From NCBI RefSeq assembly GCF_028737255.1, contig NZ_JAQZAN010000014.1, positions 1 through 64,000 of the forward strand: DNA of 64,000 nt, in the 5' to 3' direction. Of this stretch, positions 1-53,772 are shown one piece after another (positions within the stretch are counted from its first letter, which is position 1; the number at the start of each line of letters is the position of its first letter). Source of the DNA: Actinomycetospora straminea. GTDB lineage: Bacteria > Actinomycetota > Actinomycetes > Mycobacteriales > Pseudonocardiaceae. The translations under genes and the position numbers were made by a program. The notes below the pieces were generated by a model. It was not told where the DNA came from. It made no database searches and saw only the letters and a list, made by a program, of their open reading frames with translations.

Positions 1-1991
1 GTCTCGAGCTCGGGCCCGGGCGCGCGCTCCGACTCCCGCGGGACCTGCCGGAGCGCCTCGGGCCGCCGGGGCTGCTCGGGGCGCGGACCGGCGGCGGGCC
101 GGTCGGGCGCGCCGGGGGGCTCGCCCGCCGCCGGCGGAGCGGGCTCGGGCTCGGCCGGCATCGACCGGGCCAGCTCGCGCAGGGCGTCCCGGGCCGCGTC
201 CACCGACGGCTCGGCGGGCGTGTCCCGGACCGGCTCGCGGGCGTCGACCTCGTGGCGGGGCAGCCGGGTCCCGGGTGCCGGGTCGGTGCGGTCGGCCCGC
301 TCGAGCGGGTCGGTGCCCGCGGCCGCGACCGTCCGGTACTCCTCCTCGACCGGCTCGCCCGCGGTGACGGTGCCGACGCGCTCGTCGGCGCCGTCGCGCG
401 GCACACCGAACGGCGGCACCTCGTCCGCGGGGCGACGCCACGGCGCGGCCTCGGGGCGGTGGTCCACGACCGGGCGGGGACGCACCGCCGCCGGAGCCGC
501 CGGGCGGACGACGGCGGAGGAACCGCCGGTCCCGGCCTCGGGGGTGCCGAGCGGACGGGCCGCGCGCACGGCGGCGCGGTGGTACGCGGGCAGCTCGGCG
601 CCGGCCGCGAACACCTCGACCGAGACGGCCCCGTGCTCCCGCGCCGCGTAGGCCACGTGGTGGGCGACGTGCTCGCAGTCGTCGGGCGAGTGGGTCTCGA
701 CCAGCACCACCCGGTGCGGCACCGGACCGGGCGCGGTGCCCGCCGGCGTCGTCCGCCAGCACTGGCGCACGCGCTGCACCCCCGGCAGGCGGGCGGCGGC
801 ACGGGCGACGGCCTCGCCGGCCCCGCCCGCGCCGGCGCCGGGCGGCGGGTCGGCGGTGAAGCGGTGCTCCTCGCGGCGGTCGGCGTCGGGGTCGCGGGGC
901 AGGGCGTCGACCAGCTCGGGGTCGACCCGCGACGCGGCGAACCACCGGCCGAGCACGGCGTGCTCGCGCGCCGTGACGCCCGCGGCGGCGGCCAGCAGGC
1001 AGCCGCCGAGCAGCTCCGCCGCCGCGGCCTCGTCCTCGACGGCCACGAGCTCGCGTACCGAGGTCAGCGCGTCGTCGTCGATGCGACCGGCGAGCGAGAG
1101 CAGGACCTCGTGACGGCTGCCGCCCTCGCTCGGTGTGCCGGGGCGCGATTCGAGCCCGCTGCGGGCGCTCGGAGCGCCCTGCGGCCCTCGCCCCGGAGCG
1201 CCGCCGGCGTCCCGGGCCTCCGGCTCGACGACGCGGGAGCCGAACCACGGCGCGAGGTCGTCCTCGTCGGCCGAGCCCGGGTCGCGCCCGGCCGCCGGCG
1301 CGTCGACCGGCGCGGGGGCCGGCTCCGGCGTCGGCTCCGGCTCGGGCGTCGGCTCGGGGTCGTGCGACACCGCCGGCTCCGGCGCGGGCTCGTCCACCAC
1401 GAGCACACCCTCGACCTGGACGACGTCCTCCACCTCGTCCCCGGCGTCCACGGCGTCGCCCGCGTCGGGCACCCTCTCGGGCTCCTCCGGCTCGACCGAC
1501 GCCACCCGCCCGGCCTCCGGCTCGACCGGTTCCACCCGCCCGGCCTCCGGCTCGACCGGTTCCACCCGCCCGGTCTCGGCCGGCCCGGCGTCCGCGACCA
1601 CCGTCTCCTCGGACCCGCGGGGCTCGCCCGGCACGGGCTGCCCCGGCACGTCGGTCGCGTGCGTCCCGTCCGCCGGTGTCGCCTCGCCCACCGCGGTGAC
1701 CCCCGAGGCGCGCAGCCGCCGGCGCTCGGCGACGCGGCGCCAGGCGGCGAGGGCGACGGGGTCGCGGTCGGGACGGTCGGCGCCCGCCGCGCGCTCGTCG
1801 CGCACCGACCAGGGCGGGAGGTTGGCGAGGTCCCCGCCGCCGCCGGCGAGGCCGCCGAGGTCGGGGAGCTCGCCCAGGTCGCCGAAGCCGAGCCGGCCGA
1901 TGCGCGGCGAGTCCTCGGCGCGACGGCGGGCAAGGCCGGGCGCGGGGTCGACGTCCGGCCGGTCCTCGCCGGTCATGTCCCGCTCAGCCAT
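1..1991 (-). CDS. Large protein of unknown function, C-terminus beyond window
   Basis: An uninterrupted minus-strand frame of 663 codons runs from an ATG at 1991 off the left edge. It has an N-terminal stretch, a Pro/Glu-rich low-complexity section with a 10-residue tandem repeat (GRVEPVEPEA), then at about residues 292-475 a folded-looking domain beginning HEVLLSLAGRI and ending PAYHRAAVRAA, then a Pro/Glu-rich tail. The same domain forms most of the next gene upstream, so the two look paralogous. Its ATG lies inside the last codons of that gene (8-nt overlap, ATGGCTGA), implying coupled translation. I recognise no family, membrane segment or catalytic motif. Third-position GC is high throughout this frame, which supports it over the overlapping frames. 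Function unknown. Confidence 0.75.
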   Translation of the reverse strand, partial: MAERDMTGEDRPDVDPAPGLARRRAEDSPRIGRLGFGDLGELPDLGGLAGGGGDLANLPPWSVRDERAAGADRPDRDPVALAAWRRVAERRRLRASGVTAVGEATPADGTHATDVPGQPVPGEPRGSEETVVADAGPAETGRVEPVEPEAGRVEPVEPEAGRVASVEPEEPERVPDAGDAVDAGDEVEDVVQVEGVLVVDEPAPEPAVSHDPEPTPEPEPTPEPAPAPVDAPAAGRDPGSADEDDLAPWFGSRVVEPEARDAGGAPGRGPQGAPSARSGLESRPGTPSEGGSRHEVLLSLAGRIDDDALTSVRELVAVEDEAAAAELLGGCLLAAAAGVTAREHAVLGRWFAASRVDPELVDALPRDPDADRREEHRFTADPPPGAGAGGAGEAVARAAARLPGVQRVRQCWRTTPAGTAPGPVPHRVVLVETHSPDDCEHVAHHVAYAAREHGAVSVEVFAAGAELPAYHRAAVRAARPLGTPEAGTGGSSAVVRPAAPAAVRPRPVVDHRPEAAPWRRPADEVPPFGVPRDGADERVGTVTAGEPVEEEYRTVAAAGTDPLERADRTDPAPGTRLPRHEVDAREPVRDTPAEPSVDAARDALRELARSMPAEPEPAPPAAGEPPGAPDRPAAGPRPEQPRRPEALRQVPRESERAPGPELE
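1485..1574. repeat. 30-bp in-frame tandem repeat, about 3 copies
   Basis: A 30-bp unit (core ctcgaccggttccacccgcc) occurs nearly three times in tandem inside the left-edge gene and encodes the repeat GRVEPVEPEA. Because the unit is a multiple of 3, copy-number change would keep the frame. Confidence 0.8.
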
Positions 1992-2676
1992 GGCCCACCA
2001 GCTCCCCGGCCTGGGCGCCCTGCCCGGCGCGCGTGGGCGACGGCACGCGCCCCTCGGCCGAGCGCCAGAGCACCTCGGAGGCCGCCAGCGCGGCCCGGTG
2101 GTACGGCGACGGGCCGGCGGACGGCCCGAGGACCTCCACGCACGGGTCGGCCTCGCCGCGGGCGCGCAGCGCGCGCTGCACGGCGCCGGCGAGCGTCGGC
2201 CGGTCGGCACCGCCGTCGGCGGCGACGAGCACCACGCGCACCGGCGCGCCCGAACCGGCGCGCCAGGCGCGGCGGATCGCGGTGACCCCCTCGGTGACCG
2301 GGGCGAGGGCCCGCAGCACGAGGTCGGTGTCGTCCCAACCCGGGCCGGCGCCGGGGTCGAGGAACGGCGCGCCCGGCTCGCCGACCGCGTCGACGTGCAG
2401 CACCGCGTCCACGAGGCGGGCGGGCCCGCCCCACGCGAGCACCGCGGCGCGCAGGCGGGCGCGCTCGTCCTCGGTGACGCCGACGCGGTGGCGCAGCAGG
2501 GCCCGGGGCAGCGCGGTGCGCAGCGCCACGTGCGCGCCGCAGGACAGCCAATCGCGCAGGCGCCAGAGCAGGCGGTCCGGCAGTCGCCCGGCCATGGCGA
2601 GCAGCACGTCGTGACACGCCTGCTCGGCATCGCCGGACGAGGGGGTCCAGGATCCGGTCCCGGTCCTCGATTCCAC
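1984..2676 (-). CDS. Hypothetical protein, paralogue of the adjacent domain
   Basis: A 230-residue protein with a GTG start at 2676. It opens HDVLLAMAGRL near residue 22 and ends near PSPYHRAALAASEVLW. These match HEVLLSLAGRI and PAYHRAAVRAA in the next gene in both order and spacing (the latter domain is about 180 residues), and both have a VVLV strand between. I infer that it is a free-standing copy of that domain. No signal peptide, transmembrane segment or known motif is visible. The stop overlaps the downstream start by 8 nt, so the two are probably co-translated and may act together. Function unknown. Confidence 0.75.
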   Translation of the reverse strand: MESRTGTGSWTPSSGDAEQACHDVLLAMAGRLPDRLLWRLRDWLSCGAHVALRTALPRALLRHRVGVTEDERARLRAAVLAWGGPARLVDAVLHVDAVGEPGAPFLDPGAGPGWDDTDLVLRALAPVTEGVTAIRRAWRAGSGAPVRVVLVAADGGADRPTLAGAVQRALRARGEADPCVEVLGPSAGPSPYHRAALAASEVLWRSAEGRVPSPTRAGQGAQAGELVGHG

Positions 2677-48945: not shown

Positions 48946-49725
48946 TCACGCCCGGGGGCGCCACAGCGCGCCCTCGAGCGCCTCGGGGCTCCCCGCCGGC
49001 GCCGCCCGCAGGTCGCCCAGCTCGTCGCGGTGCTCGGCCAGCGCGAGCGCCGAGAGGGCGGCGTCGAACGCGTCCTCGGTGGCGACGACGTCGTCGAGGA
49101 GGGCCGCGGGGATGCGGGGGTCGGCGCCCGCCACCGCCCGCCGGGCGGTCGCCGAGCGCTTCACCACCGGCCCCGTGTGCACGCGCGGGTAGATCTCCAC
49201 GAGCGTCGCGGGGCCGGCGTCGTCGAACGGCCACACCGCGAACCCCGCCGCGCGCAGCCGCGCGAGGTGCGGCATCCCGCGCAGAGAGCCCGTGCCGACC
49301 GCGCCGGCGCCGCCGATCTGGAAGGTCGAGCGCGGGTCCAGGCCGTCGGCGCGCGCCGCCTCCTCGGTGACGCGGAACCCCGGCCGCGCCGGGTCGAGCG
49401 GCGGCCGCGGCGTCGCGCCGCGGCCCCAGAACGGCGGGCGGCACTCCCGCAGCCACCGCTCGCCCTCGCGCGCGACGAGGTCCCAGAGCGCGGCGACGTC
49501 GGCGCACCCGTGCTCGCGCGCGAACCAGGCGGGCAGGGCGAACGAGAAGTCGAGGCCCGCCACCAGCGGGCCCGCCGCGGCGCGCTTGCGCAGGAGGGCC
49601 GCCACGCCGTCCCGGTCGAGGCCGCCGCGCACCGCGACGAGGCGCCCGGGCTCCGCGGTCGCGACGCGGATGCGCCGGTGGGCCGCACGTGCGTCGCCCG
49701 ACCAGTCGACCGCGATGGCCTCCAC
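48946..49725 (-). CDS. DUF429 (predicted RNase H-fold) protein
   Basis: A 259-residue DUF429-type protein. It opens AIAVDWSGD, has GLDFSFALPAWF, VEIYPRVHTGPVVKR and ends TEDAFDAALSALALAEH, all matching the acidic-residue layout of a predicted RNase H-like nuclease family. The role in cells is unknown. GTG at 49725 is preceded by GGGAGGAGGGCC. It converges on the Tat operon. Confidence 0.88.
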   Translation of the reverse strand: MEAIAVDWSGDARAAHRRIRVATAEPGRLVAVRGGLDRDGVAALLRKRAAAGPLVAGLDFSFALPAWFAREHGCADVAALWDLVAREGERWLRECRPPFWGRGATPRPPLDPARPGFRVTEEAARADGLDPRSTFQIGGAGAVGTGSLRGMPHLARLRAAGFAVWPFDDAGPATLVEIYPRVHTGPVVKRSATARRAVAGADPRIPAALLDDVVATEDAFDAALSALALAEHRDELGDLRAAPAGSPEALEGALWRPRA

Positions 49726-49955
49726 GGCCCTCCTCCCACGCTTCCCCGACCGCGCCGCTCACCTCGGCCGACCTGCCGCTCGTCGCGCCGCACCCACCGC
49801 TGGTCCCGCCGTACCCGCCACCACGCTTTCCGGTGGCCCTTCGTCGCACCGATTGCCGGGCCTCCCCCGGACGGGTTGAGTCCGATCTGGCCGTTCACCG
49901 CAGCTGCAGATGCGACGAACGGTCTCCTTCGTTCACGCGTTCGCGAGGAGACCTC

Positions 49956-50317: not shown

Positions 50318-52054
50318 TCAGCCGACGAGGACCCGGCTCGGCGCCTCCGCCGCGGTCACGGCGGGCATCCGCAGCCGCACCGCCGTGCCCACCCCGGGCC
50401 GGGTGTCGACGTGCACGTCGCACTGCGAGCCGAACGTCGCGTGCAGCCGGCGCGAGACCTCGGCGATGCCGCCGTGGCGCCGGTCGACCTGCGACGCCGC
50501 GCGCGTGGCCTCCGGCCCCATGCCGGCGCCGTCGTCGGACACGGTGATGACGCAGTCGGCGCCCGAGCCCGACGCGAAGACGCTCACCGAGCCCCCGCCC
50601 GGCACGGGCTCGATGCCGTGGCGCACCGCGTTCTCCACCAGCGGGGCCACGACGAACGGCGGCACCAGGACGCCGCGGACCTCCGGGGCCACCGCGACCT
50701 CGGCGCGCAGCCGCTGCCCGAAGCGCGCCTGCTCGAGGGTGAGGTAGCGCTCGGCGTTGAGGAGCTCGTCGCCGACCGTGGTGAGCTCGCCGCCCGACCG
50801 GAACGAGTAGCGGGTGAAGTCGGCGAACTCGGTGAGCAGCTCGCGGGCCCGTCCCGGGTCGGTGCGGACGTAGGCCGCGATCGCGGTGAGCGTGTTGTGC
50901 ACGAAGTGCGCCGAGAACCGCGACCGCAGCGCCGACTCCACGTCCTCGCTCGACGGGGCCGCGACGACGTCGGCGACCCGGGCCGGGGTGCGGGCATGGG
51001 TCCGCGCATCGGCGACCTCGAGGTCGTCGAGCTCCAGGTCGGTGTCGACCACGGGCGCGGAGAGCACCGGCGCGGCGACGGTGGCGGGGTGCGCCGAGCG
51101 CAGGCCCTGCCAGATCGGGCGCTCGAGCAGGCCGGTCGCGGTCCAGCGGCGGTGCTCGACCTGCCCGACCAGCCGCGGCGCCAGCCAGTGCACCGTGCCG
51201 CCCGCGTCCTCGGGCAGCGGGGTGGCGAACGGGCTCACCGAACGCTCCAGGCCGCCGAGCAGCCCGTCGAGCTCGCGGCGCGCGGCCGCGGTGACCCCGG
51301 TGACGACGCGGCCCGAGTAGCTCAGCCCCGCCTCGCCCGGCACACCGACGAGCAGCGCGCCCACCGCGTCCGGTCGCCCGCGCGCGGGGACCCAGCCGCC
51401 GACGACGACGTCCTGGGTGCGCCGCACCGGCGTCTCGATCCAGCTCCGGGAGCGGCGACCGACCTGGTAGGTCGACTCCAGGCGCTTGGCGACGACGCCG
51501 TCGAGCCCGTAGCGCCGGGCGGTGTCGACGACGGCGTCGGCGGCGACGCCGGTGAAGAACGGCGGGATCACGACCCTGCTCCCGGAGAGATCGAGCTCGG
51601 CGAGCAGCTCGCGGCGCTGGCGGTAGGGCAGTCGGCGTGTCGAGGCGCCGGCCACCTCGAGGACGTCGAAGACGTAGAAGGACACCGGCACCTGGGCCTG
51701 GAGCACCTCGGAGGGGTGCGCGACGCGGTGGCGGCGGCGCAGCTTGCCCGCGCTCGGCCGCCCGACCCCGTCGAGCGCGACCACGACGCCGTCGAGCACG
51801 AGGCCATCGGTGTTGGTCCACGGCGCGGTGACGCCGAGCTCCGGGAAGTGCGAGGTGACGTCGCGGCCCGCGTCGGTGACGAGGCGCAGGCCGTCGGGGC
51901 CCGTGCGCGCGAGGCAGCGCAGCCCGTCCCACGCGAACTCGAACGCCCAGCCGGCGCCGCGCGGCACGTCGCCGGCGCTCGCGAGCATGGGGCGCCCGGG
52001 CGAGGCCTCGGTGGCACCCGGCAGTCCGGTGGCGAGGGTCGCCACGTCCGTCAT
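50318..52054 (-). CDS. Degenerate ATP-dependent DNA ligase fused to a LytS-type histidine kinase
   Basis: A 578-residue fusion. Residues 20-320 follow a LigD-type ligase: nucleotidyltransferase (YVFDVLEVAG, LPYRQRREL, GVVAKRLESTY) and OB-fold (ALLVGVPGEAGLSYSGRVVTG, WLAPRLVGQVEHRRWTATG). Motif I reads EFAWDG, with Ala41 where the catalytic Lys should be; motif III has Val90 for Glu; motif IV Asp185 for Glu; and motif V lacks its Lys (WIETPV). Residues 370-578 are a His_kinase/HATPase pair: FSAHFVHNTLTAIAAYVRTDP (candidate His383), PLVENAVRHG (Asn475) and VSDDGAGMG. It is probably a signalling protein with a ligase-derived sensor. ATG 52054. Confidence 0.88.
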   Translation of the reverse strand: MTDVATLATGLPGATEASPGRPMLASAGDVPRGAGWAFEFAWDGLRCLARTGPDGLRLVTDAGRDVTSHFPELGVTAPWTNTDGLVLDGVVVALDGVGRPSAGKLRRRHRVAHPSEVLQAQVPVSFYVFDVLEVAGASTRRLPYRQRRELLAELDLSGSRVVIPPFFTGVAADAVVDTARRYGLDGVVAKRLESTYQVGRRSRSWIETPVRRTQDVVVGGWVPARGRPDAVGALLVGVPGEAGLSYSGRVVTGVTAAARRELDGLLGGLERSVSPFATPLPEDAGGTVHWLAPRLVGQVEHRRWTATGLLERPIWQGLRSAHPATVAAPVLSAPVVDTDLELDDLEVADARTHARTPARVADVVAAPSSEDVESALRSRFSAHFVHNTLTAIAAYVRTDPGRARELLTEFADFTRYSFRSGGELTTVGDELLNAERYLTLEQARFGQRLRAEVAVAPEVRGVLVPPFVVAPLVENAVRHGIEPVPGGGSVSVFASGSGADCVITVSDDGAGMGPEATRAASQVDRRHGGIAEVSRRLHATFGSQCDVHVDTRPGVGTAVRLRMPAVTAAEAPSRVLVG

Positions 52055-52250
52055 CGGCGCCCCTCCCCGACCCGTCGCGCTGCCGTGCCGGCGAGGTGAT
52101 CGCCGGCTCGGTCCACGGTAGACGCGCACCGCGACGCTGACACCGTCGTCGCGGACGCGGCGCGCGCGAACTGCGACCGGGGACCACCGAGCAGCGACGA
52201 ACGGTGGAACGGCGCGTGGCGCGCGGGTCACACCCCGGCCGGGGAGAGCG

Positions 52251-53054
52251 TCAGCCCGCCACCAGACCGACGGCGACGACCGTCGACGGCCGGGGCGGCA
52301 CGGGCCCGCTGGCCTCGACGGACACCGCCCAGCCACGGGGCGCCGGTGTCCCCGGACCCGGTGCCGGCGCATCGCCGAGCGGGCGTGTCACGCCGTCGTC
52401 CGGATCCATGACCGCCACCGCCTCCGGCGCGTTGCCGGGCAGGCCGGTGGCCCACACGACGTAGTCGCGCGCGGTCCCGGTCGACGGGAGGTCGAGCGCG
52501 ACGAGGCGGACGCCGGCGGTGGGGTCTCCGGGGTCGAGCAGGACGGCGACCGGGGCGCCGGTCTCCCCGCGCAGGACGGTCGCGCGCACCCCCGGGTCGG
52601 CGGCGCGGGCGTCGGCGACCACGCGGTCGGCGCGCTCCTCCGTCGCGGTGACCGGCGTGTCGGGCACCGGCGAGCGCGTGGGCAGCACGCCACCCGCGAC
52701 GACGAGGACGAGCCCCAGCACGACGGCGGCGACGAGCGCGCCGGCCGTGGCGAGGACCGGGCGGCGGGCCGGCGCCGGGGTGGACGGGGGCGCGCTGGGA
52801 GGCACGGTGGGGGGCGAGGGCTCGCGCCCGCGCTCGGCCCGGACGGTCTCGAGGAGCCGGCCGCGCAGCGCGGGCGGCGGGTCGGTCTGCGGCACCGCGG
52901 CCCCGAGGGCGGCGACGATCTCCGCCGCCGCGGCGAGGGTCCGGCGGCAGGCCGCGCAGTGCGCGAGGTGGGCCCGGAACGCCAGATCCTCCTCGGGCTC
53001 GAGCGCGGAGAACGCGGCACCGACGGCGTCGGCGTGCAGGTCGCAGGTGCTCAC
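52251..53054 (-). CDS. RskA-like zinc anti-sigma factor
   Basis: A 267-residue single-pass membrane anti-sigma factor. The N-terminal zinc domain has HLAHCAACRR (HxxxCxxC). One membrane helix (VLATAGALVAAVVLGLVLVVAGGV) follows a Pro-rich linker, and the external part ends in a RskA-type beta domain (VVWATGLPGNAPEAVAV ... GWAVSVEASGPVPPRPSTVVAVG). It holds its ECF sigma inactive until proteolysis. GTG start overlaps the sigma stop (GTGA), the usual coupled arrangement. Confidence 0.9.
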   Translation of the reverse strand: MSTCDLHADAVGAAFSALEPEEDLAFRAHLAHCAACRRTLAAAAEIVAALGAAVPQTDPPPALRGRLLETVRAERGREPSPPTVPPSAPPSTPAPARRPVLATAGALVAAVVLGLVLVVAGGVLPTRSPVPDTPVTATEERADRVVADARAADPGVRATVLRGETGAPVAVLLDPGDPTAGVRLVALDLPSTGTARDYVVWATGLPGNAPEAVAVMDPDDGVTRPLGDAPAPGPGTPAPRGWAVSVEASGPVPPRPSTVVAVGLVAG

Positions 53055-53710
53055 GCCAGATCCCCGAGCGCGTCGGCCGCCGACGCGCCCAGCACCGGCC
53101 CGAGCAGCACGCGCAGCCGCGCGACCCCGGCGAACATGCGCGACTTGACCGTGCCGATCGGGACGCCGGTGAGGCTCGCGACCTCGCGCTGCGAGTAGCC
53201 GCCGTAGTAGGCGAGGCCCAGGGCGGTGCGCTGCTCGGTCGGCAGCCGGTGCAGCGCGGCGCGCACCTGCTCGCCGATCACCGCGCCCAGCGCCTGCCGC
53301 GCCGCCGACGGACCGCCCGCGGGGACGCCCTCGTCCGGCTCGCCGGTGGTCGGGTGGTGGCGGCGCCGGGTGGCCTCGCGGCGCACGGCGTCGACGGCCT
53401 TGTGGTGCACGAGCGTCATGAGCCAGCCCGCGACCGTGCCGCGCGACGGGTCGAAGCGGGCGGGGTCGCGCCACAGCGCGAGGAACACCTCCTGGACGAC
53501 ATCCTCCGCCAGCCCGTCGTCGCCGCAGATCCGCCGCGCGAGCGAGTACGCCGGGCGCCCGTAGCGCTGGTAGAGCTCGTCGAGCGCCGCCTGCTCCCGC
53601 CCGGCCAGGCGGGCGACCACGGCGGCGTCGAGGCTCGCCGGGCCGTCGGTGTCGGGCTCGGCCTCCTCCGCGGCTGGTGCGGTGTCCGCCGGCATCACGG
53701 GCAGGGCCAC
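53051..53710 (-). CDS. ECF RNA polymerase sigma factor (SigK-like)
   Basis: A 219-residue ECF sigma. Region 2 reads LDELYQRYGRPAYSLARRICGDDGLAEDVVQEVFLALW and region 4 has LPTEQRTALGLAYYGGYSQREVASLTGVPIGTVKSRMFAG. GTG at 53710 has GAGGAGG upstream and is preferred over the ATG 15 bp later. With its RskA-like anti-sigma it would answer an envelope or redox signal. It is divergent from the ferritin-like gene, 62 bp away, which may be a target. Confidence 0.9.
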   Translation of the reverse strand: MALPVMPADTAPAAEEAEPDTDGPASLDAAVVARLAGREQAALDELYQRYGRPAYSLARRICGDDGLAEDVVQEVFLALWRDPARFDPSRGTVAGWLMTLVHHKAVDAVRREATRRRHHPTTGEPDEGVPAGGPSAARQALGAVIGEQVRAALHRLPTEQRTALGLAYYGGYSQREVASLTGVPIGTVKSRMFAGVARLRVLLGPVLGASAADALGDLA

Positions 53711-53772
53711 GCGGCCACCTCCTCGTCGGTTCCCGGGCATCGTTCGCCCACGGGTCGTCGGCGGTTCGGCCG

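Follow-up and report, generated by a model that had tools for sequence, protein, structure and literature searches.

What a DNA ligase could be doing in the same protein as a histidine kinase is the question raised by a gene of Actinomycetospora straminea. It lies on contig NZ_JAQZAN010000014.1, of which positions 1 to 64,000 were analysed (this whole stretch of 64,000 nucleotides is referred to as the window). The sequence-only reading of the gene had proposed that a LigD-type ligase core shares a frame with a His_kinase/HATPase module, that the ligase residues needed for catalysis are gone, and that the ligase fold has become a sensor driving a phosphorelay. The gene was found to be a single open frame of 578 aa on the minus strand, running from an ATG at 52054 to a stop at 50318 (Table 1). 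Four Pfam domains were matched above cut-off, namely DNA_ligase_A_M (residues 33-206, E = 3e-19), DNA_ligase_A_C (residues 229-320, E = 1e-15), His_kinase (residues 375-449, E = 6e-16) and HATPase_c (residues 468-565, E = 5e-9). The top PDB relative in a phmmer search was the ligase domain of M. tuberculosis LigD (1vs0), which matched residues 21-321 (E = 2e-51). The nucleotidyltransferase (NTase) and OB fold of an ATP-dependent DNA ligase are therefore present at the sequence level, and the proposed architecture is borne out.

Table 1. Coordinates of the fusion gene, its parts and the two genes upstream of it (positions in the window).
Feature	Residues	Position	Strand	Basis or remark
Whole fusion gene, pseudo-DNA-ligase and LytS-type kinase, 578 aa		50318..52054	-	Open frame; Pfam; 84 further such genes
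Nucleotidyltransferase domain, catalytic residues lost	20-210	51425..51997	-	DNA_ligase_A_M, 1vs0; limits approximate
Codon GCG, Ala replacing the adenylated Lys (LigD Lys481)	41	51932..51934	-	Alignment to LigD
Val replacing the motif III Glu (LigD Glu530)	90	51785..51787	-	Alignment to LigD
Asp replacing the motif IV Glu (LigD Glu613, Mg ligand)	185	51500..51502	-	Alignment to LigD
OB-fold domain	211-322	51089..51424	-	DNA_ligase_A_C; limits approximate
Variable linker	323-372	50939..51088	-	Invariant columns 0/50 in 51 Pseudonocardia members
His-containing dimerisation domain	374-449	50708..50935	-	Pfam His_kinase; His383 at 50906-50908
HATPase domain	455-565	50360..50692	-	N box and G1 kept, G2 altered
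Asn475 (N box)	475	50630-50632	-	
DDGAGMG (G1)	507-513	50516-50536	-	
Anti-sigma-like gene, ending about 200 bp before the fusion		52251..53045	-	zf-HC2, just above cut-off
ECF sigma factor, upstream of the fusion on the same strand		53051..53740	-	Pfam Sigma70_r2, r4

The fusion is not peculiar to this assembly. A profile search of 390 Pseudonocardiaceae genomes gave matches in 95, of which 84 carry the fusion, in 85 genes with that of the window included. The carriers are 17 of the 18 Actinomycetospora genomes (genus g1), 55 Pseudonocardia genomes (g30, with at most about 62 genomes in the search), ten genomes of genus g14 and two of genus g45 (three genes). The single Actinomycetospora genome without it, G015, is 83% complete. 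In the other 11 matching genomes (ten of g7, one of g40) the ligase part alone was matched. Both halves share one frame in 84/85 genes; L261 has no readable kinase half, and L144, at a contig end, is missing about its first 100 residues. The architecture is common to four genera; none of the readable fusions keeps the catalytic lysine, and the fusion proved neither unique to this assembly nor split into two genes in close relatives. Of 394 genomes drawn from the class 45 matched, the window's own included, and no fusion was seen elsewhere. The other matches were confined to the ligase part. Those that extended furthest stopped at model positions 363-384 of 561, near the H box, and four of these (G553, G617, G714 and G598) all hold the ligase part, with no kinase match. 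At the thresholds used, the fusion looks restricted to part of the Pseudonocardiaceae, although more diverged fusions could escape them.

Counting along the alignment to LigD sets Ala41 opposite Lys481, Asp61 opposite Arg501, Val90 opposite Glu530, Asp185 opposite Glu613, and Glu207 and Pro209 opposite Lys635 and Lys637, so that the losses claimed for motifs I, III, IV and V are all confirmed. According to excerpts of the LigD literature (PMC8656161), Lys481 is the nucleophile and Glu613 binds Mg, while Arg501, Arg629 and Lys635 align the gamma-phosphate, Glu479 and Lys618 contact adenine, and Arg486 and, via water, Glu530 contact the ribose. The motif I lysine is present in 0/84 readable fusions compared with 34/34 ligases (those of the 42 ligase hits that retain the catalytic residues), and the same holds for the motif III glutamate (0/84 against 34/34) and the equivalent of Arg501 (none against 34/34). 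The motif V equivalent of Lys635, found in all 34 ligases, survives in 6/85 fusions, the window protein not among them, and the motif IV glutamate in 14/85. Position 41 is occupied by Ala in 46 fusions, Val in 10, Ser in 8, Gly in 8, Leu in 5, Thr in 3, Asp in 2, and Arg and Tyr in 1 each (85 were aligned, one of them without this region). Since the motif I lysine and the motif III glutamate are both missing throughout, no fusion relative can, judging by its active-site positions, be a normal ligase. The pattern of loss is strong, yet not exclusive to catalysis, because His110, Leu259, Ala47, Gly224 and other non-catalytic positions have been lost as well.

Other parts of the pocket are retained. 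Glu39 (LigD Glu479) is kept in 84/84 fusions, Arg46 (Arg486) in 83/84 and Arg201 (Arg629) in 85/85, and position 190 (Lys618) is Lys in 60/85 and Arg in the other 25. Among the 79 columns that are invariant in ligases, 16 are unchanged, to rounding, throughout the fusions. ATP has been seen bound in a LigD domain with Lys481 changed to Met (again from excerpts of PMC8656161), and loss of the lysine alone therefore need not abolish nucleotide binding. The nucleotide pocket is nonetheless putative, as the ribose contact Glu530 and Arg501 are lost and the retention of Glu39, Arg46 and Arg201 may serve folding.

Besides the fusions, 42 ligase-like hits were recovered, two of which duplicate a gene already counted. 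The motif I lysine is retained in 40 and missing from two, both from the window's own genome. This genome contains a LigD variant with the order ligase-phosphoesterase-polymerase and Thr in place of the lysine (locus L005, positions 1-2157, minus strand, on contig C15). It also contains a ligase NTase domain alone, divergent from Ku, with Asp at this position (locus L007, positions 1336-2184, minus strand, on contig C5). An ORF resembling the L007 protein is found near Ku at locus L140, with Arg at the motif I lysine position.

In the kinase half, the HF motif with candidate His383, Asn475 and DDGAGMG had been reported, and all three are present. The H box (HF..N) is the most constant element, His383, Phe384 and Asn387 occurring in 84/84 readable fusions. 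Asn475 is found in 31/84, comprising 17/17 in Actinomycetospora, 10/10 in g14, 3/3 in g45 and 1/54 in Pseudonocardia. Among the 55 Pseudonocardia members the N box asparagine is lost in 51, replaced in two, kept in one and unreadable in one. Both the N box and the G1 box of a LytS-type kinase are present in the window protein and in 17/17 Actinomycetospora members. A point overlooked in the sequence-only reading is that the G2 box of the window protein is altered, reading HGGIAEV as opposed to HVGLGNV in 22/22 LytS compared. Across Actinomycetospora, Asn has changed to Glu at 532 in 17/17 members and Gly to Ala, Ser or His at 531 in 16.

A closer look at Pseudonocardia reveals further decay. 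The 51 members without an N box have a shortened ATPase, most of it lost, and retain the histidine. The median pairwise identity among these 51 is 0.72 for the His domain, 0.51 for the NTase domain, 0.50 for the OB fold, 0.43 for the ATPase remnant and 0.27 for the linker. When fusions were compared with the LytS of the same genome (22 pairs), the His domains were 45-72% identical; for the ATPase domains the figure was 41-60% in 10 pairs but fell to 17-30% in the remaining 12, all from ATPase-poor Pseudonocardia. A kept His domain beside a degenerate ATPase describes the 51 Pseudonocardia members well, and the window protein only partly. These comparisons indicate that the kinase ATPase of the family is eroding. 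It may still work in Actinomycetospora and should not in most Pseudonocardia members, which would then be doubly dead pseudoenzymes that keep their phospho-acceptor site. Because the N box and the greater part of the ATPase are missing from 51 Pseudonocardia members and the G2 box is altered, autophosphorylation cannot be what the family has in common. As G2 is altered even in Actinomycetospora, autokinase activity is not to be assumed there.

Phylogenies were built for each half. The ligase halves form one clade (support 100/99) among 37 ligases, in a tree of 27/85 fusions and 37/42 ligase hits (one too short, two distant and two duplicates were omitted). The rows closest to this clade are LigD-type ligases of Pseudonocardiaceae, the exact sister being modestly supported. 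The kinase halves likewise form one clade (99/95) relative to LytS, in a tree of 20/84 kinase halves and 50 LytS; several of the fusion rows there, from Pseudonocardia, sit on long branches. Because each half forms one clade, a single fusion event is likely and is the simplest reading of the trees. Between the window gene and five near relatives, dN/dS (Nei-Gojobori) was estimated at 0.06-0.17 in the ligase half and at 0.01-0.08 in the kinase half. With two relatives at a greater distance the ranges were 0.39-0.49 and 0.36-0.37, respectively, and two further pairs gave 0.09 and 0.17 (ligase half) and 0.10 and 0.22 (kinase half). The fusion family is under purifying selection.

The genomic neighbourhood offers a connection to end joining in some of the genera. 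Ku lies directly upstream on the same strand in 9/9 g14 loci examined (the tenth contig is too short and was left out of the count), with a Pfam E-value of 2.5e-47 in the one locus scanned, and is the convergent neighbour in 2/3 g45 loci. In Actinomycetospora, Ku is 8.0-13.6 kb from the fusion in 15/15 genomes where one contig carries the two; the remaining 3/18 have them on separate contigs or yielded no fusion. This proximity is shared synteny and not 15 independent events. No Ku was found within 20 kb of the fusion in 11 Pseudonocardia genomes (two viewed on one side only); the shorter flanks examined at 19 Pseudonocardia loci, 6-8 kb at most, had none either. The g45 genome G388 has two fusion genes, L140 and L146, with Ku beside one and none within the 8 kb examined of the other. 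The Ku of M. tuberculosis is reported, in the same excerpts (PMC8656161), as a weak binder of the LIG domain. Ku proximity may have a functional meaning.

Other neighbours are confined to single genera. The ECF sigma gene lies ahead of the fusion, in the same orientation, in 7/7 Actinomycetospora loci with enough flank, so the fusion may belong to an ECF sigma regulon in this genus; the anti-sigma-like gene is present in five of the same seven loci, at E 1e-6. No ECF sigma factor was found beside the fusion in the loci of other genera. An ORF at 48946-49725 recurs in Actinomycetospora only, and its tentative identity as DUF429 was dropped as there was no Pfam match. In Pseudonocardia a GH65 enzyme (Pfam, one locus scanned) is a neighbour in 15/19 loci. 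Neither the sigma factor and the ORF at 48946-49725 nor the GH65 neighbour is common to different genera.

Upstream of the fusion, at 52194-52205, is the 12-mer ACCGTTCGTCGC, which occurs again, inverted, at 49912-49923, about 30 bp upstream of a small secreted-looking ORF on the plus strand. Ahead of the fusion, the last 11 bases of ACCGTTCGTCGC do not vary among the 9/9 Actinomycetospora sequences aligned, and neither do the blocks TCCCCGGTCGCA and TACCGTGG. A promoter and terminator scan found none, and a LytTR-site pattern matched the window three times compared with 3.4 expected. A role in anti-phage defence (PADLOC, 0 families for 3 proteins) and a plasmid or phage carrier (of 1170 plasmid and 31 phage records with a match, none covers 80% of the query at one place) were both rejected.

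With a signalling partner in mind, genomes were screened for LytTR and His_kinase proteins. The window's genome encodes a single LytTR protein; its His_kinase proteins number two, namely the fusion and one LytS. As had been stated from the sequence, no LytR-type regulator is adjacent to the fusion; the sole LytTR gene found lies about 4 kb from the only other LytS, on a different contig from the fusion. A further neighbour of this LytS/LytTR pair is what we take to be an SSS-type symporter. Six further Actinomycetospora genomes have two His_kinase proteins each, with one LytTR (four genomes) or two (two genomes). There are two His_kinase and one LytTR proteins in each of three g14 genomes, three and 3-4 in two g45 genomes, and 2-3 and 2-5 in 14 Pseudonocardia genomes. 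Within the LytTR family, there is thus a sole candidate in 5/7 Actinomycetospora and 3/3 g14 genomes examined, and in several genomes the partner is a guess because 2-5 LytTR proteins are present. In G005, a single-contig genome, the fusion is about 200 kb from LytS. This distance, like the lack of Ku in the Pseudonocardia flanks examined, counts against the reading preferred below.

Since the ligase chemistry has been lost, and the remainder is fused to a kinase signalling half and kept under selection, these data suggest that a DNA-end-joining enzyme has been turned into a signalling input. The reading that we prefer, and to which we give an even chance, is that the dead LigD-type ligase is a non-catalytic input for a DNA end, Ku or an adenine nucleotide, and that the His domain acts on the LytS-LytTR pathway. 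The family would have arisen once, by fusion of the ligase domain of a non-homologous end-joining (NHEJ) LigD-type enzyme to a LytS kinase signalling half with loss of the ligase chemistry, and its ligase fold would serve as a recognition module for an end-joining context. Candidate ligands would be DNA at an end or nick, Ku, or an adenine nucleotide bound non-covalently in the old pocket; the kept nucleotide-contact residues favour the nucleotide, and the Ku linkage favours a DNA end or Ku. The state of the ligase fold would then be passed to the His-containing dimerisation domain, whose readout would no longer depend on its own ATPase. This domain would influence the LytS-LytTR pathway in trans, whether or not it is itself an active autokinase. 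Its output could be acceptance or donation of a phosphoryl group, dephosphorylation of the LytTR regulator, or a heterodimer with LytS. Ligand, partner and phosphotransfer are all steps that we infer.

A tentative proposal is that the fusion signals double-strand breaks, a dead ligase on Ku or a DNA end reporting unrepaired breaks via the conserved histidine to LytTR. The doubly dead Pseudonocardia proteins would then act by phosphoryl transfer or dephosphorylation in trans only.

It is doubtful that the His domain is a dimerisation scaffold only, within a structural NHEJ accessory that would hold or block DNA ends or Ku with no phosphoryl transfer. The degenerate ATPase of 51/55 Pseudonocardia members, the altered G2 of Actinomycetospora and the Ku neighbour in g14 and g45 are all consistent with such an accessory. 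However, a scaffold is not expected to keep a phospho-acceptor, and His383, Phe384 and Asn387 are unchanged in every readable fusion; moreover, the N box asparagine is kept in Actinomycetospora, g14 and g45, and the Pseudonocardia genes examined have no Ku near them.

The fusion could also be an ordinary soluble LytS-type sensor kinase, in which a ligand on the ligase-derived domain switches autophosphorylation and transfer to LytTR. The intact H box, N box and G1 of the window protein, the single LytTR in its genome and the strong purifying selection on the kinase half point this way, but the reading is improbable given the altered G2 in all 17 Actinomycetospora members, the loss of the N box in 51 Pseudonocardia members and the lack of an adjacent regulator. 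The original proposal of a sensor driving a phosphorelay therefore stands in one part: conversion of the ligase fold to a regulatory input is the best reading, with the lysine and the motif III glutamate absent from all 84. The part not supported is a phosphorelay driven as by an ordinary kinase, given the changed G2 of Actinomycetospora and the 51 Pseudonocardia members that lack the N box and the bulk of the ATPase.

That the protein is still an active ligase or nucleotidyltransferase using another nucleophile was rejected as very improbable, for although the fold and part of the pocket are kept, the equivalents of Glu530 (0), Arg501 (0) and Lys635 (6/85) are lost besides the lysine, and the fusions have no common replacement at position 41, where Ala, Val, Leu, Ser, Gly, Thr, Asp, Arg and Tyr all occur. 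A decaying pseudogene or assembly artefact, which the loss of catalytic residues in both enzymes might suggest, was rejected as next to impossible in view of one frame in 84/85 genes, one clade per half, dN/dS well below 1 among near relatives, and 16/79 ligase-invariant columns kept throughout while catalytic positions were lost.

Returning to the preferred reading of a dead ligase as signalling input, open-licence PMC full text (most subscription journals and bioRxiv lie outside it) gave no earlier report in which a DNA ligase serves as a regulatory domain or a kinase is joined to an end-joining enzyme, in line with the initial view that no system of this kind had been described. As far as found, the regulatory use of a DNA ligase is without precedent, and from the signalling side this is a His-domain protein whose type of input is, to that extent, new. 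A coupling of end joining to two-component signalling in bacteria can now be tested, and studies of pseudoenzyme evolution gain a natural series that begins with an almost complete kinase and ends with a His domain poor in ATPase.

Among known systems, the ligase domain of LigD (M. tuberculosis Rv0938; PDB 1vs0, 6nhz) is shared as NTase and OB fold over fusion residues 21-321. The positions of Glu479, Arg486, Lys618 and Arg629 are mostly kept, and Ku is a neighbour in two genera. Unlike LigD, the fusions have no nucleophile and no motif III glutamate, most have lost the motif V lysine, and they are joined to a kinase and carry no polymerase or phosphoesterase domain. The L005 LigD variant and the L007 NTase-only protein of the window's own genome resemble the fusion in missing the motif I lysine, but have no kinase part and keep the motif III glutamate. 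LytS-type kinases that work with LytTR, such as the own-genome LytS and E. coli BtsS (the latter from excerpts of PMC10653868), share the Pfam His_kinase and HATPase_c domains, and the own-genome LytS is 46% identical to the fusion over 249 aligned positions. In contrast to these kinases, the fusion has a dead ligase as its sensor part, no adjacent LytTR and an altered G2, and in most Pseudonocardia fusions the ATPase is degenerate.

Kinase-like proteins with a conserved histidine are a further point of comparison. Spo0B is a kinase-like His phosphotransferase, and we know of no DNA-repair domain in ChpT, PhyT or Spo0B. In the excerpts cited, ChpT is a dimeric His phosphotransferase resembling a kinase (PMC3433190) and PhyT uses a conserved His to hand on a phosphoryl group (PMC5898713). 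As ChpT and PhyT work through His, a phosphotransfer role for the fusion has precedents, and by analogy its own conserved histidine is a candidate for such transfer.
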